The position numbers and the translations under genes were made by a program. A model generated the notes under the pieces. The model was not told the DNA's origin. It did not search any database and saw only the letters and a program-made list of their open reading frames with translations. This document shows, piece after piece, positions 21,228 to 27,708 of a stretch of 32,860 nt of DNA. The DNA lies in NCBI GenBank assembly GCA_015492195.1, contig WGFP01000230.1:1-32860 (forward strand), given 5' to 3'. This DNA is from Acidiferrobacterales bacterium (GTDB lineage: Bacteria > Pseudomonadota > Gammaproteobacteria > Acidiferrobacterales > Sulfurifustaceae). Position 1 is the first letter of the stretch. Every line of letters begins with the position of its first letter.

Positions 21228-22532
<1,305 letters not shown>

Positions 22533-22547
22533 AACTGGGGGGATGAT

Positions 22548-22683
22548 TTAAGGGGGATCTGATTAATTATGAATATTCACCGCAAAGACGCAGAGAACGC
22601 AAAGAAATGATGGAATCAAAATAGAGAAATCTCCGCGCGCTTTGCGCCTTTGCGGTAAAAACTTATAATTAGAGATTCCTTAA
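22548..22683. repeat. MITE-like imperfect inverted-repeat element (about 136 bp)
   Basis: Left arm TTAAGGGGGATCTGATTAATTATGAATATTCACCGCAAAGACGCAGAG aligns with the reverse complement of the right arm, TTAAGGAATCTCTAATTATAAGTTTTTACCGCAAAGGCGCAAAG. The ACCGCAAAG...CTTTGCGGT core is exact. Confidence 0.75.
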
Positions 22684-22758
22684 GCGGTTGAGACAAGGGC
22701 GCGATATAACGCCCCCACTAAACGAAACCGCCTTTTCTTTTGCGTAACCGCGTATACA

Positions 22759-23046
22759 ATGAAAATAATGAAGCCCATCACCTACACACTTCTTGGTCTG
22801 CTGTTGCTGTTGCAATACCCTCTATGGTTTGGCGGCGGGGGGCTCCTGACTTTGTGGCGACTGCATCAGGAAATCAGCATACAGCAAGAGGAAAATCTGC
22901 GCCTGAAAGAAAGAAATCAGGCCCTGGAGGCCAGGGTCCTCAACCTGAAACAGGGGCTTGATTCAATCGAAGAACGGGCGCGTATCGAGCTTGGTATGGT
23001 GAAAAGGGGGGAAACCTTCTATCGGATCGTTGAAATGCCTGATTGA
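22759..23046 (+). CDS. ftsB: Cell division protein FtsB (DivIC-like)
   Basis: 95 aa, N-terminal TM then coiled coil (LKERNQALEARVLNLKQGLDSIEERARIELGMVKRGETFYRIV), directly after eno. Confidence 0.92.
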   Translation: MKIMKPITYTLLGLLLLLQYPLWFGGGGLLTLWRLHQEISIQQEENLRLKERNQALEARVLNLKQGLDSIEERARIELGMVKRGETFYRIVEMPD

Positions 23047-23186: not shown

Positions 23187-23792
23187 CTACTCAGCAGGGA
23201 AGACCGTGTTCATTTCCGCCGTTCTCAAGGCCTCGGCGGCTTCTTCCGTTTTGGAAAGCATCTCAGAGAAGTTTCTTGTTGTTTGGCTGAAAGCCCGGTT
23301 CGCCGCCCGGTTTACTTCTTTTTCCGCTTGTTGAAGTAAATTCAGGAATCGCTCGTAACTGATACGGGTCAGGTAGGCATTCTTCAACAGCGAATGGTAG
23401 CTGTCTCCCTCTGCTTTGAGAAGTTTAACGTAATGATCGATGAGGAGATCTATCTCTTTCAGTTGTTTCCGGCGTATCTCCTTTGCCGGTTCGGCGTAAC
23501 CCCCTTCTGAACTGGGAAGACACCCGGCCAGTGCCTGTTCTTTTGGTATACCTCTCTCTACCATATCAAAGGCTGCATTCAGAGCCGCTTTCTTGGTAGT
23601 CATAAACTCCTTGGCTACCGCTTCCAACGCCGGCTTATACTGCCGATAACCGAGAAGATACTGAACAAAAATGATCGGGATTACGATCATCCAGGCCGAA
23701 AGCCGCGGCCTGTCCACAATCTTGTCCGCCAGCAAGTCTGCAAACCGGCGTTCCTGGGAAAAAATGAGTTCGTATCTTGTTTCTATGGACAT
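23187..23792 (-). CDS. Uncharacterised single-TM, helix-rich protein
   Basis: ORF 23187..23828. RBS-like GCGAGGGGGT just upstream of ATGs at 23795/23792 supports start MSIETRYELIFSQ. One TM segment (LSAWMIVIPIIFVQYLLGY), then a long helical charged region. Confidence 0.8.
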   Translation of the reverse strand: MSIETRYELIFSQERRFADLLADKIVDRPRLSAWMIVIPIIFVQYLLGYRQYKPALEAVAKEFMTTKKAALNAAFDMVERGIPKEQALAGCLPSSEGGYAEPAKEIRRKQLKEIDLLIDHYVKLLKAEGDSYHSLLKNAYLTRISYERFLNLLQQAEKEVNRAANRAFSQTTRNFSEMLSKTEEAAEALRTAEMNTVFPAE

Positions 23793-23947
23793 CATACCCC
23801 CTCGCTGCACTCCACCGACCGCCGACACCCCTGCTTTAATCGCGGTGGCTGATGGTTATCATTACGATAGAGATTGCCCGGCAGGGATAATTATTCAAGT
23901 GCGTGGCGTTCAATTACTGCGCGGTCTCCGGGCGTTTCAATGCCCAG

Positions 23948-24199
23948 CTATTTCGTCTGCGACTCCTTTTCGGAATAATCCCGCAACACCATATTCTTCC
24001 GGGGGTTATAGTCGCGATGGTGAAGCAGTTCAAACTCTATCTCCCAGATTCTTTCCACTTCTCCGTAAAAGATGGCGCTGGTCTCCAGACCACTCTCGCG
24101 CAGGTCGGTAATCTGTTGTCCGAATCCTCCCAGGCGCTCCAGCGCCGGAGCTATAACGGTCAATCCGGCCAGCAGGAGGACCCCCCCAATAAACGCCAT
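23948..24199 (-). CDS. Uncharacterised small membrane protein
   Basis: ORF 23948..24283 (GTG start). The ORF 5' end contains a strong terminator hairpin, so the ATG at 24199 (MAFIGGVLLLAGLTVIAP) may be the true start. One TM helix plus a soluble tail. Confidence 0.6.
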   Translation of the reverse strand: MAFIGGVLLLAGLTVIAPALERLGGFGQQITDLRESGLETSAIFYGEVERIWEIEFELLHHRDYNPRKNMVLRDYSEKESQTK

Positions 24200-24206
24200 C
24201 CAGCGG

Positions 24207-24242
24207 TAAAAAGGATGGCCGGGTGGGAAACCCCACCCGGCC
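24207..24242 (-). terminator. Rho-independent terminator downstream of the exporter gene
   Basis: On the minus strand: GGCCGGGTGGG-GTTT-CCCACCCGGCC followed by ATCCTTTTT; 11-bp perfect GC-rich stem plus T run. Confidence 0.8.
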
Positions 24243-24292
24243 AGCTTGCTCCTTCCAGACGCTCCTGGTGCCGGCGTCCTCACGGTGCCCGA

Positions 24293-26047
24293 TTACTCCA
24301 TAATCCGCGCCGTGATGTCCGGAAACACGATGAAGAACATCAGATACGCCATGGCCAGGGTCAATATCAGATTGAACGTCTGTCCGGCTACGTAAAGAAT
24401 GACCGGCTTGCCGCCCTTGAAGTGTACGGCCAACTCACGGAAGTTGGTGGCCAGGCCAATGCTCACAAACGCCAGGGCGAAGAACCAGCCGCGGAAACGG
24501 TTCGCCCAAGACAGCATCCCTTGGTCGATCATCACCTTGCCCCAGTCGTGGCCCATGGTCCCGTACATCACGGAAAACACGATCGAGGCGCCGATAAAGC
24601 CGAGGATGAACTTGGGGAAACGGCTCCAGATCTCGGCCATGGCTGCCCCAAAGCCAAGGTTCACTTGTCCGGCCGTGCCTGAGCGTTCACGCTCTATTTT
24701 CAGGGCCCAGTAGGCCGCTACACAGAAGGCCATGACGCCGATCATGATGTTTTGGATCATCTTGATGGTGGCCGCCGTATACATAGCCACCGGTCCGATC
24801 AACTCACCCGCTGCGACCACCGACCCGGTATTGTCGACGGTGCCGCCGATCCAGGCGCCGGCCAACACCTCGTGCATTCCCACATAGTTAGCAAATGCGG
24901 GCAGGGCGAATATCATGATCGCCACGAAGACCATGGACAGGCCGATGGCCAACGTCAGCTCCTCCTTCTTGGCCCGGCAGGCGGCCGCGCAGGCAATCGC
25001 CGCCGACACACCGGATACGGACATATCGGCCGAGATGGTAATGTTCAACTCCTTGGACGGCATCTTGACGAGCTTCTGCCCGAACCAGTAGGTGCCGATG
25101 AGCACGATGGGAGTCACCACCCAGGCCACAAAGATGCCGGGGATACCGATAAGCACAATCTTGCCGATCAGAATACGCGCACCCAGCAACACCAGACCGG
25201 TCTTAATGTAGAATTCGGTCTGGACGGCCGGCTTCAGCCACTTGGGCGTTCCTATGGTATTCGCGACCAAAAGGCCTATGATCAATGCAAACAGGACATA
25301 CGAAAGGCCAAGAGTTTTCATGGTGGTCTGTTTGGAGATCATGTAGGCCATCACTGCAATCACAAACACCACTGGAAAGGCAATCAGGAATTTCCGCGCA
25401 CTGTGGCCCATAAAACGCATGCCGATGGCGAAAATAATCCCTATAGCAACCATGAGCACCGCGAGGCTGGGAATCAGATTGTAGGGTTTGGCCTTAGCCT
25501 TTTTCTTGATCTTCCCCTCGGCCCGTTTGGCGGCGCGCCAGTCCGCGATTGCCGCCTTTGCCTGTTCATTTAGAGAATTATCCTGGAAGTTGGCAGCCGC
25601 GGCCGCGGCTTCGGCTTCTTCAGCCTTGGCGCGGGCCGCCTTGGTCGCCGCCTTGGCATTGGCGTACTTCTCCGCGTTTGCCGCCCGGATGGCCGCCGCG
25701 TCCTCCTCGCTCAGGTAGAGGGAGGAAATCGGGTTGCTCGTCCATTTTTTCGGCCTGTTCGTATAGGCGTACAGAGTCTTCATCGGCGCGACCTTCTTGG
25801 CCTTCAATTTCTTCTTCTTGTCCTCGGCATCGAAATAGGCGAGGGTTCGGAAAGGCGCCCGCTCCGATTCTTGCTGCATAATGGCGTTTGACTTGTCGAA
25901 CGTGGCTTGCATGTTCTTCGGCGGGTTGGGTATGACAAGAATCATCCCGAGCACCAGCAGAAACACGCCCAGCCATATGGACCATAAATCCTCCGTATTC
26001 CACCAGCTCGGTCGGTCAGCAATAGTTTTACTTTTTTGGTTAACCAT
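24293..26047 (-). CDS. YeiH/UPF0324-like putative sulfate exporter family transporter with large N-terminal insertion
   Basis: 584 aa, multi-TM. GLSYVLFALIIGLLVANTIG, FYIKTGLVLLGARIL, SGVSAAIACAAACRAKKEELTLAIGLSMVF, GAWIGGTVDNTGSVVAAG. RBS GAGGAAAAAACGCC-ATG. Confidence 0.85.
   Translation of the reverse strand: MVNQKSKTIADRPSWWNTEDLWSIWLGVFLLVLGMILVIPNPPKNMQATFDKSNAIMQQESERAPFRTLAYFDAEDKKKKLKAKKVAPMKTLYAYTNRPKKWTSNPISSLYLSEEDAAAIRAANAEKYANAKAATKAARAKAEEAEAAAAAANFQDNSLNEQAKAAIADWRAAKRAEGKIKKKAKAKPYNLIPSLAVLMVAIGIIFAIGMRFMGHSARKFLIAFPVVFVIAVMAYMISKQTTMKTLGLSYVLFALIIGLLVANTIGTPKWLKPAVQTEFYIKTGLVLLGARILIGKIVLIGIPGIFVAWVVTPIVLIGTYWFGQKLVKMPSKELNITISADMSVSGVSAAIACAAACRAKKEELTLAIGLSMVFVAIMIFALPAFANYVGMHEVLAGAWIGGTVDNTGSVVAAGELIGPVAMYTAATIKMIQNIMIGVMAFCVAAYWALKIERERSGTAGQVNLGFGAAMAEIWSRFPKFILGFIGASIVFSVMYGTMGHDWGKVMIDQGMLSWANRFRGWFFALAFVSIGLATNFRELAVHFKGGKPVILYVAGQTFNLILTLAMAYLMFFIVFPDITARIME
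25484..25927 (-). other. Ala/Lys-rich, probably helical insertion (residues about 41-188) in the exporter
   Basis: Lies between TM1 (IWLGVFLLVLGMILVIP) and the main TM bundle; includes EEDAAAIRAANAEKYANAKAATKAARAKAEEAEAAAAAA. Confidence 0.8.
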
Positions 26048-26616: not shown

Positions 26617-27708
26617 TTAAAGAACGCCTTGGCTTGATTCCGGTGTCGGGACCGTATAGGGCAATGCTTGAACCTCAAGCCGCGGCCCGGTTTCACTATG
26701 GAGGGAGAGGGAGCCATCCGCGATGCGGCTCGTCTGGATCACCGCCAACAAATCGTAACCGCCCCCCGGTGCCGGCTGGGCGACGACGACACGCCCGGCC
26801 GCCTGCCCGCGCAGGCCGGGAGCGTAGACCGCGTCACCCGGTTGGGGGGATGCTGCTTCACCACTGACATGCGCACGCACCATGCGCTGCTTGGGTTTGC
26901 CGAGGTAGTGCATGCGCGCCACAATTTCCTGGCCGGGATAACACCCCTTCTCAAAGCTGACGCCGCTCAGCAATTCGAGGTTGACCATCTGCGGCACAAA
27001 GGCTTCGCTGGTTTCAGGCAATATCGTCGGCAGGCCGGCCATGATATCGAGCCAGACCCACGTTCCCGGCCCGGCTTTCACCGCCTTCGGTGAAAGTTCT
27101 TCCCACAGGGTAATGGCTGTCGACGTGGGCGCCGCGCACGCAAAACGGGGGTGCACCCCGGGTAAACGCAACACCGTAATACCATTCTGGGTCAGGCAGG
27201 CGTCGTCGCCATCCGGGATGGAGGGGGTTATTTCTTGCATAATTCCAGGGGCATCCGGCCCCGAAACGCCGATGCTGCACAGTTCCTGATCCGCGCTTTC
27301 CAGCGTGACTTTGGCGCGCAACACGTACTTGCGCAGTCGCTCGAGTATGCAGTTTTGCAGCGAGGCGGGCAGCTGCAACAGATAATGCCCGTCGCGCCGG
27401 AAAATGCGAAATATCGCCAGGATGCGCCCCTTTGCGGTGCAATAGGCAGCCAGCTGGCCGTGTGCGTCATCCACCTGGCGCACATCGTTGCTTAACTGGT
27501 TGTTCAGGAAGGCAGTGGCCTCTTCACCCCGAGCGCGGATCAGGGATAGATGCGTCAGGGGCACCAGAATAGTATTGTTTGCAGCGGCGCGCCTTTCCTG
27601 TTCCGGGTTGCCGAAGTGCCGCACCTGGCGGTCGTCGAGCACCGCCCCTGCCTTAGCGAGATAGGATATCCATTCGTCATTCACGATGTTACCGTCCATT
27701 GCCGGCAA
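26617..27708 (-). CDS. ygfZ: Folate-binding protein YgfZ (tRNA-modifying/Fe-S cluster related)
   Basis: 363 aa; GCVT-like fold sequence, FLNNQLSNDV, CTAKGRILAIFRIF, and the KGCYPGQEIVARMHYLGKPKQRM signature. Start may lie at an internal site (MDGNIVNDEW). Confidence 0.93.
   Translation of the reverse strand: MPAMDGNIVNDEWISYLAKAGAVLDDRQVRHFGNPEQERRAAANNTILVPLTHLSLIRARGEEATAFLNNQLSNDVRQVDDAHGQLAAYCTAKGRILAIFRIFRRDGHYLLQLPASLQNCILERLRKYVLRAKVTLESADQELCSIGVSGPDAPGIMQEITPSIPDGDDACLTQNGITVLRLPGVHPRFACAAPTSTAITLWEELSPKAVKAGPGTWVWLDIMAGLPTILPETSEAFVPQMVNLELLSGVSFEKGCYPGQEIVARMHYLGKPKQRMVRAHVSGEAASPQPGDAVYAPGLRGQAAGRVVVAQPAPGGGYDLLAVIQTSRIADGSLSLHSETGPRLEVQALPYTVPTPESSQGVL

Follow-up and report, generated by a model that had tools for sequence, protein, structure and literature searches.

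Between ftsB and ygfZ, an Acidiferrobacterales contig of 32,860 nt (the whole of which we call the window) carries three minus-strand open reading frames coding for a long-form PSE (PF03601) transporter, a small one-TM protein designated S1, and an NF038143 'HYxxLL' protein (Table 1). On balance, we regard this module as a laterally acquired unit for the efflux of sulfite or other sulfur oxyanions, although we hold this reading with only modest confidence. The adjacency of the three genes is far beyond chance, and they form a functional unit rather than an accidental grouping, because S1 consistently follows the long-form transporter and, among Desulfobacterota, NF038143 occurs only in genomes that have the transporter. 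Loci and genomes compared with the window are given below as L and G numbers, its own genome being G000.

Table 1. Coordinates of the module and its flanking features in the window
Feature	Position	Strand	Properties
Transporter gene, long-form PSE (PF03601)	24293..26047	-	584 aa, ATG start, AGGA-type SD
S1, small one-TM gene	23948..24283	-	111 aa, GTG start
NF038143 'HYxxLL' gene	23187..23795	-	202 aa, ATG start, all-helical, hydrophobic segment
Stem-loop within 5' part of S1	24216..24243	-	12-bp GC-rich stem
eno + ftsB	21240..23046	+	Left flank of the slot, family synteny
ftsB	22759-23046		PF04977
ygfZ	26617..27708	-	Right flank of the slot; exceeds the TIGR03317 cut-off

All three minus-strand reading frames that an initial annotation had listed at 23187-26047 are present, but they are not alone in interrupting the plus-strand run as it had proposed, since ygfZ also lies on the minus strand. 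The GTG start of S1 is 9 nt past the transporter stop codon, and for the NF038143 gene the ATG at 23795 is a more likely start than the GTG at 23828 of an alternative reading frame (23187-23828), because the alignment of relatives begins at the ATG. Upstream of the module, a sigma-54 promoter pattern is no commoner than chance and a sigma-70 scan gave a chance-level result. A phage or defense origin was dropped in the absence of such neighbor genes, as were DFP and chlorosome Pfam matches in the window, which are below cut-off. Between eno and ftsB (22572-22662) there is an imperfect 'accgcaaagacgcagag...ctttgcggt'-type inverted repeat, presumably a kind often met in environmental genomes; an Rfam match to MIR1507 at this position is below cut-off and certainly spurious, and the Rfam scan returned nothing else.

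The PF03601 match spans residues 226 to 550 of the transporter (E = 4e-44; 151 bits versus a gathering threshold of 24.5), and the protein scores below cut-off against TIGR00698 (YeiH; 72.8 versus 232.6 bits). The AlphaFold2 model (pLDDT 80) has TM1 (residues ~19-38), a helical insert of ~150 aa (46-184), TM2 (~192-212), and the PSE core (226-550), and the insert is predicted to face the periplasm, because the PSE_2 form is given as 11 TM and N-in in the topological description of PMC8396727. PSE proteins are expected to have a CPA/AT-type fold with 9 or 11 TM. The best Foldseek matches of the model are NhaP, CitS, and NHA2, with E values of only 0.02 to 0.05 and low TM-scores, and the model leans weakly toward an NhaP/CitS-type elevator fold; PDB sequence searches with the transporter and with the NF038143 protein gave no meaningful match. 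Sulfate reducers (Desulfobacterales, Desulfohalobiaceae, Desulfosporosinus, and Desulforudis) account for almost all of the 18 loci that hold close relatives at 52 to 73% identity; the others come from an Omnitrophota genome, from a bin assigned to Rhodospirillales, and, as a distant form, from Pirellulaceae. The gene order of the module is kept across several phyla, and 13 of the 15 genomes carrying relatives of the window transporter have dsrA.

S1 has a single TM and the family motif ..LRESG(I/L)..(G/S)A.(F/Y)Y..VE.., and by its genomic distribution it is the exclusive partner of the long-form transporter. A profile search of the six-frame translations of 75 PF03601-type loci (6373 open stretches) gave 29 matches, all of them on the same strand as, and directly downstream of, a long-form transporter, and none beside shorter or resident PSE forms. 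The profile was built in three rounds, two of them refined on earlier matches, with the first (10-sequence seed) already giving 28. S1 is thereby present in 29/29 long-form loci with downstream DNA, a count that omits L033 and L075, which stop too early downstream of the transporter. The N side of S1 is the more positive in 25/29, from which an N-in topology is predicted with the conserved C-terminal part in the periplasm, and it is plausible that this part and the transporter insert touch each other, since both are predicted to be periplasmic.

The third protein had been taken, like S1, for an uncharacterized partner, but it belongs to a named family, matching NF038143 at 193 bits (cut-off, 50) over 196/197 positions. 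Its model is all-helical (pLDDT 84.7), in line with its earlier description as helix-rich, whereas the single TM also proposed is only putative, the hydrophobic stretch (approximately residues 31-50 of the 202-aa form) being the low-confidence part of the model. Foldseek found no credible match (best E, 0.77), and the name 'HYxxLL' was not found in a literature search. NF038143 is only a frequent companion: about half of the long-form loci have it with the transporter, and about half lack it. It was not found in viral contigs, and among 369 genomes of the window's class it is above cut-off only in the window's own. That genome has a second, divergent NF038143 paralogue on contig C155 (L045:1220-1840) with a slightly short C-terminus, which has no transporter nearby, adjoins smpB/bamE/fur-type genes (read by eye), and resembles the second NF038143 copy of L022 and L024.

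Within S1, the minus-strand stem-loop consists of TGGCCGGGTGGG-GTTT-CCCACCCGGCCA followed by CCTTTTT. Strong, GC-rich hairpins at the transporter/S1 junction are present in about 19/29 long-form loci, with stem sequences that differ and pairing that is kept; the junction hairpin is the sole strong one in L022, L024, and L028, and is missing in Desulfosporosinus. Our guess is that it sets the ratio of transporter to S1 product.

The association with dissimilatory sulfur metabolism was examined in one set of 247 Desulfobacterota genomes, in which the transporter (profile threshold, E <= 1e-60) occurs in 43, NF038143 in 12, and dsrA in 122. The transporter is present in 12/12 NF038143-bearing genomes (Fisher P = 1.9e-10), dsrA is present in 39/43 transporter-positive versus 83/204 transporter-negative genomes (P = 5e-10) and in 14/14 genomes with the long form (P = 3e-5), all of these P values ignoring phylogenetic kinship and thus overstating the evidence. 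NF038143 and the transporter are on one contig and no more than 6 kb apart in 10/12, and on separate contigs in G245 and G273. There is also direct proximity: six genomes of Desulfobacterota (G155, G167, G196, G199, G251, and G296) have a shorter sister-clade transporter at 2 to 6 kb from their dsrAB genes, and in G273 an NF038143 cluster is near dsrAB. Most dsrA-positive Desulfobacterota are without the module, which is thus not essential for Dsr metabolism. We note that in L092, L093, and L095, from three Desulfobacterota genomes, dsrAB is separated from the PSE/NF038143 genes by what reads by eye as a P-type cation ATPase gene.

DsrEFH and DsrL are markers of the oxidative Dsr direction. 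The window's genome has dsrA above cut-off, and its operon, identified by eye, has the composition dsrABEFHCMKLJOP, which is of the reverse-Dsr, sulfur-oxidizing kind; by gene content the organism is a sulfur oxidizer. The Rhodospirillales bin, which holds the nearest relative, likewise carries dsrAB, accompanied by dsrEFH-like genes, on the same contig at a distance of ~45 kb. Of the sulfite, sulfate, and taurine roles raised by the initial annotation, the evidence favors the sulfite/Dsr context over taurine, and a taurine or sulfonate exporter was dropped because sulfonate genes are not alongside. That annotation had let its module stand or fall with the co-occurrence of the neighbors in other genomes; they do co-occur, and the claim is now strengthened well beyond the evidence first available for it.

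The position of the module provides a view of its origin. In the window's family the slot reads eno-ftsB, an unassigned ~209-aa gene, a Usp gene, a divergent PSE gene, and then ygfZ and sdhCDAB, most clearly in L129 and similarly in L127, L128, L130, and L132 (genes read by eye except those checked with Pfam), and in L138 the ftsB-ygfZ slot is empty. The resident PSE genes (e.g., L129 and L132) share this slot and PF03601 with the window transporter, but belong to a separate clade at ~30% identity, and their neighbors are the Usp and ~209-aa genes rather than S1 and NF038143. In the window, a sulfate-reducer-type module occupies the slot, with the eno-ftsB-[..]-ygfZ synteny kept on one contig, and a second PSE-like copy was not found in its genome (243 contigs, 89.6% complete). 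In a maximum-likelihood tree, the window transporter pairs with that of the Rhodospirillales bin (support 99/89), and the pair falls inside a clade of sulfate-reducer proteins (100/98), remote from the resident PSE genes of the family. Tree position and the occupied slot together support lateral acquisition of the module from sulfate reducers with replacement of the resident PSE gene in place; GC content shows no clear signal.

We propose that the transporter, probably of the elevator type, would move sulfite, and possibly sulfate, out of the cytoplasm, with S1 as a dedicated membrane partner whose C-terminal part probably contacts the periplasmic insert, and NF038143 as a helical accessory that is often present and may act as a regulator or scaffold. 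Sulfite is favored on the grounds that sulfite resistance in Salmonella is driven mainly by YeiH, as shown genetically (PMC12880088), that the Hyphomicrobium YeiH is a sulfite-export candidate with 526-fold induction by thiosulfate (PMC11582611), and that the module is linked to dsrA. The module would have arisen in Dsr-bearing sulfate reducers and moved into a reverse-Dsr sulfur oxidizer, where it took the slot of the family's own PSE transporter, such that the two are probably interchangeable in function. More tentatively, and with well less assurance than for efflux itself, we suggest a dedicated multi-protein sulfite exporter, composed of PSE and S1 and tuned by NF038143, that serves Dsr in both directions and can be swapped with the distant-clade PSE of oxidizers, the hairpin possibly setting the subunit ratio.

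Rather unlikely, but deserving the most attention among the alternatives, is that the transporter works as an importer or exchanger of sulfate or sulfite, or of oxyanions analogous to them, molybdate for example. The base of evidence for the 'exporter' in the PSE name is thin (PMC11582611), most dsrA-positive holders of the module are sulfate reducers and need uptake, and disruption of DVU0543 and DVU0544 in Desulfovibrio vulgaris is beneficial under molybdate, a result consistent with import of a toxic analogue of sulfate (PMC10102598). However, the protection from sulfite by Salmonella yeiH is hard to reconcile with import (PMC12880088), and the module is also kept by a sulfur oxidizer, in which reverse Dsr would make cytoplasmic sulfite and leave little need for import. 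Somewhat less credible still is that the module takes part in a response to redox or nitrosative stress that shields the Dsr pathway, with the ion being secondary (e.g., nitrite or another anion). This would account for the Tll0287-heme histidine kinase, sigma-54 response regulator, and Usp genes that often flank the module in Desulfobacterota, and fused Tll0287 domains behave as NO sensors in vitro (PMC12889525), but these regulators are absent beside the module in the window and, with reading frames read by eye, in L021, and the module is linked directly to dsrA and dsrAB.

It is very improbable that the three genes are mere neighbors or that the contig is chimeric through binning or assembly. 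The module does have a phylogeny foreign to the family, and the genome is assembled in 243 contigs, but both flanks match the family slot on one contig, the second NF038143 copy is on a different contig alongside genes that read by eye as smpB/fur-type, and several phyla share the gene order.

Efflux of sulfite is of interest in that the handling of toxic sulfite in the cytoplasm of dissimilatory sulfur bacteria is largely unresolved and the PSE 'sulfate exporters' are without a proven substrate. A literature search found no transport assay for the long-form PSE clade, and PF03601/UPF0324 is not mentioned by Marietou et al. (2018). The obligate S1, the dsrA link, and the natural in-place swap open the questions of substrate, direction, and subunit composition to direct testing. 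The parts of the module are of known kinds, but the literature searched appears not to report the obligate pairing with S1, the connection to dsr, or the swap into an oxidizer's PSE slot.

Several known systems resemble the module in part. Enterobacterial YeiH (TIGR00698, PSE_1) shares the PF03601 core and probable sulfur-oxyanion transport with the window transporter, which, besides falling below the TIGR00698 cut-off, has two extra N-terminal TMs with the ~150-aa insert and an obligate S1 partner, and there is no LysR regulator YeiE next door. The PSE_2 form also has two extra N-terminal TM helices ahead of the PSE core, and relative to its description in PMC8396727 the window transporter has in addition a long helical stretch inserted between TM1 and TM2, as well as its partner genes.

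The closest known case, which corresponds in gene order, is DVU0543-DVU0544 of D. vulgaris. DVU0542-0545 (with DVU0540/0539) encode a PSE transporter and then a one-TM protein of 133 aa, both between two Usp genes; genes for a kinase and a sigma-54 regulator lie opposite, and disruption of DVU0543-0545 is beneficial under molybdate, with the authors leaving the role open (PMC10102598). The likeness in layout is that a small one-TM protein follows the PSE transporter, although DVU0544 is longer than the 111-aa S1, the operon as described does not mention an NF038143 gene, which the window has, and the Usp, histidine kinase, and sigma-54 regulator genes alongside are lacking in the window. A DVU-like layout with kinase, sigma-54 regulator, and Usp does surround the long-form pair in several Desulfobacterota loci (e.g., L022 and L144). 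We also observe C_GCAxxG_C_C redox-type proteins adjoining PSE transporters in sulfate-reducer loci (L096:7673-8524 and, by eye, L103), and Tll0287 (CxxCH heme) histidine kinases with sigma-54 regulators beside PSE transporters in L022, L096, L144, and other Desulfobacterota. Tll0287 domains fused to signaling modules behave as NO sensors in vitro (PMC12889525, a preprint), and the kinase-regulator pair is a candidate signal input for the module in the genomes that encode it alongside.
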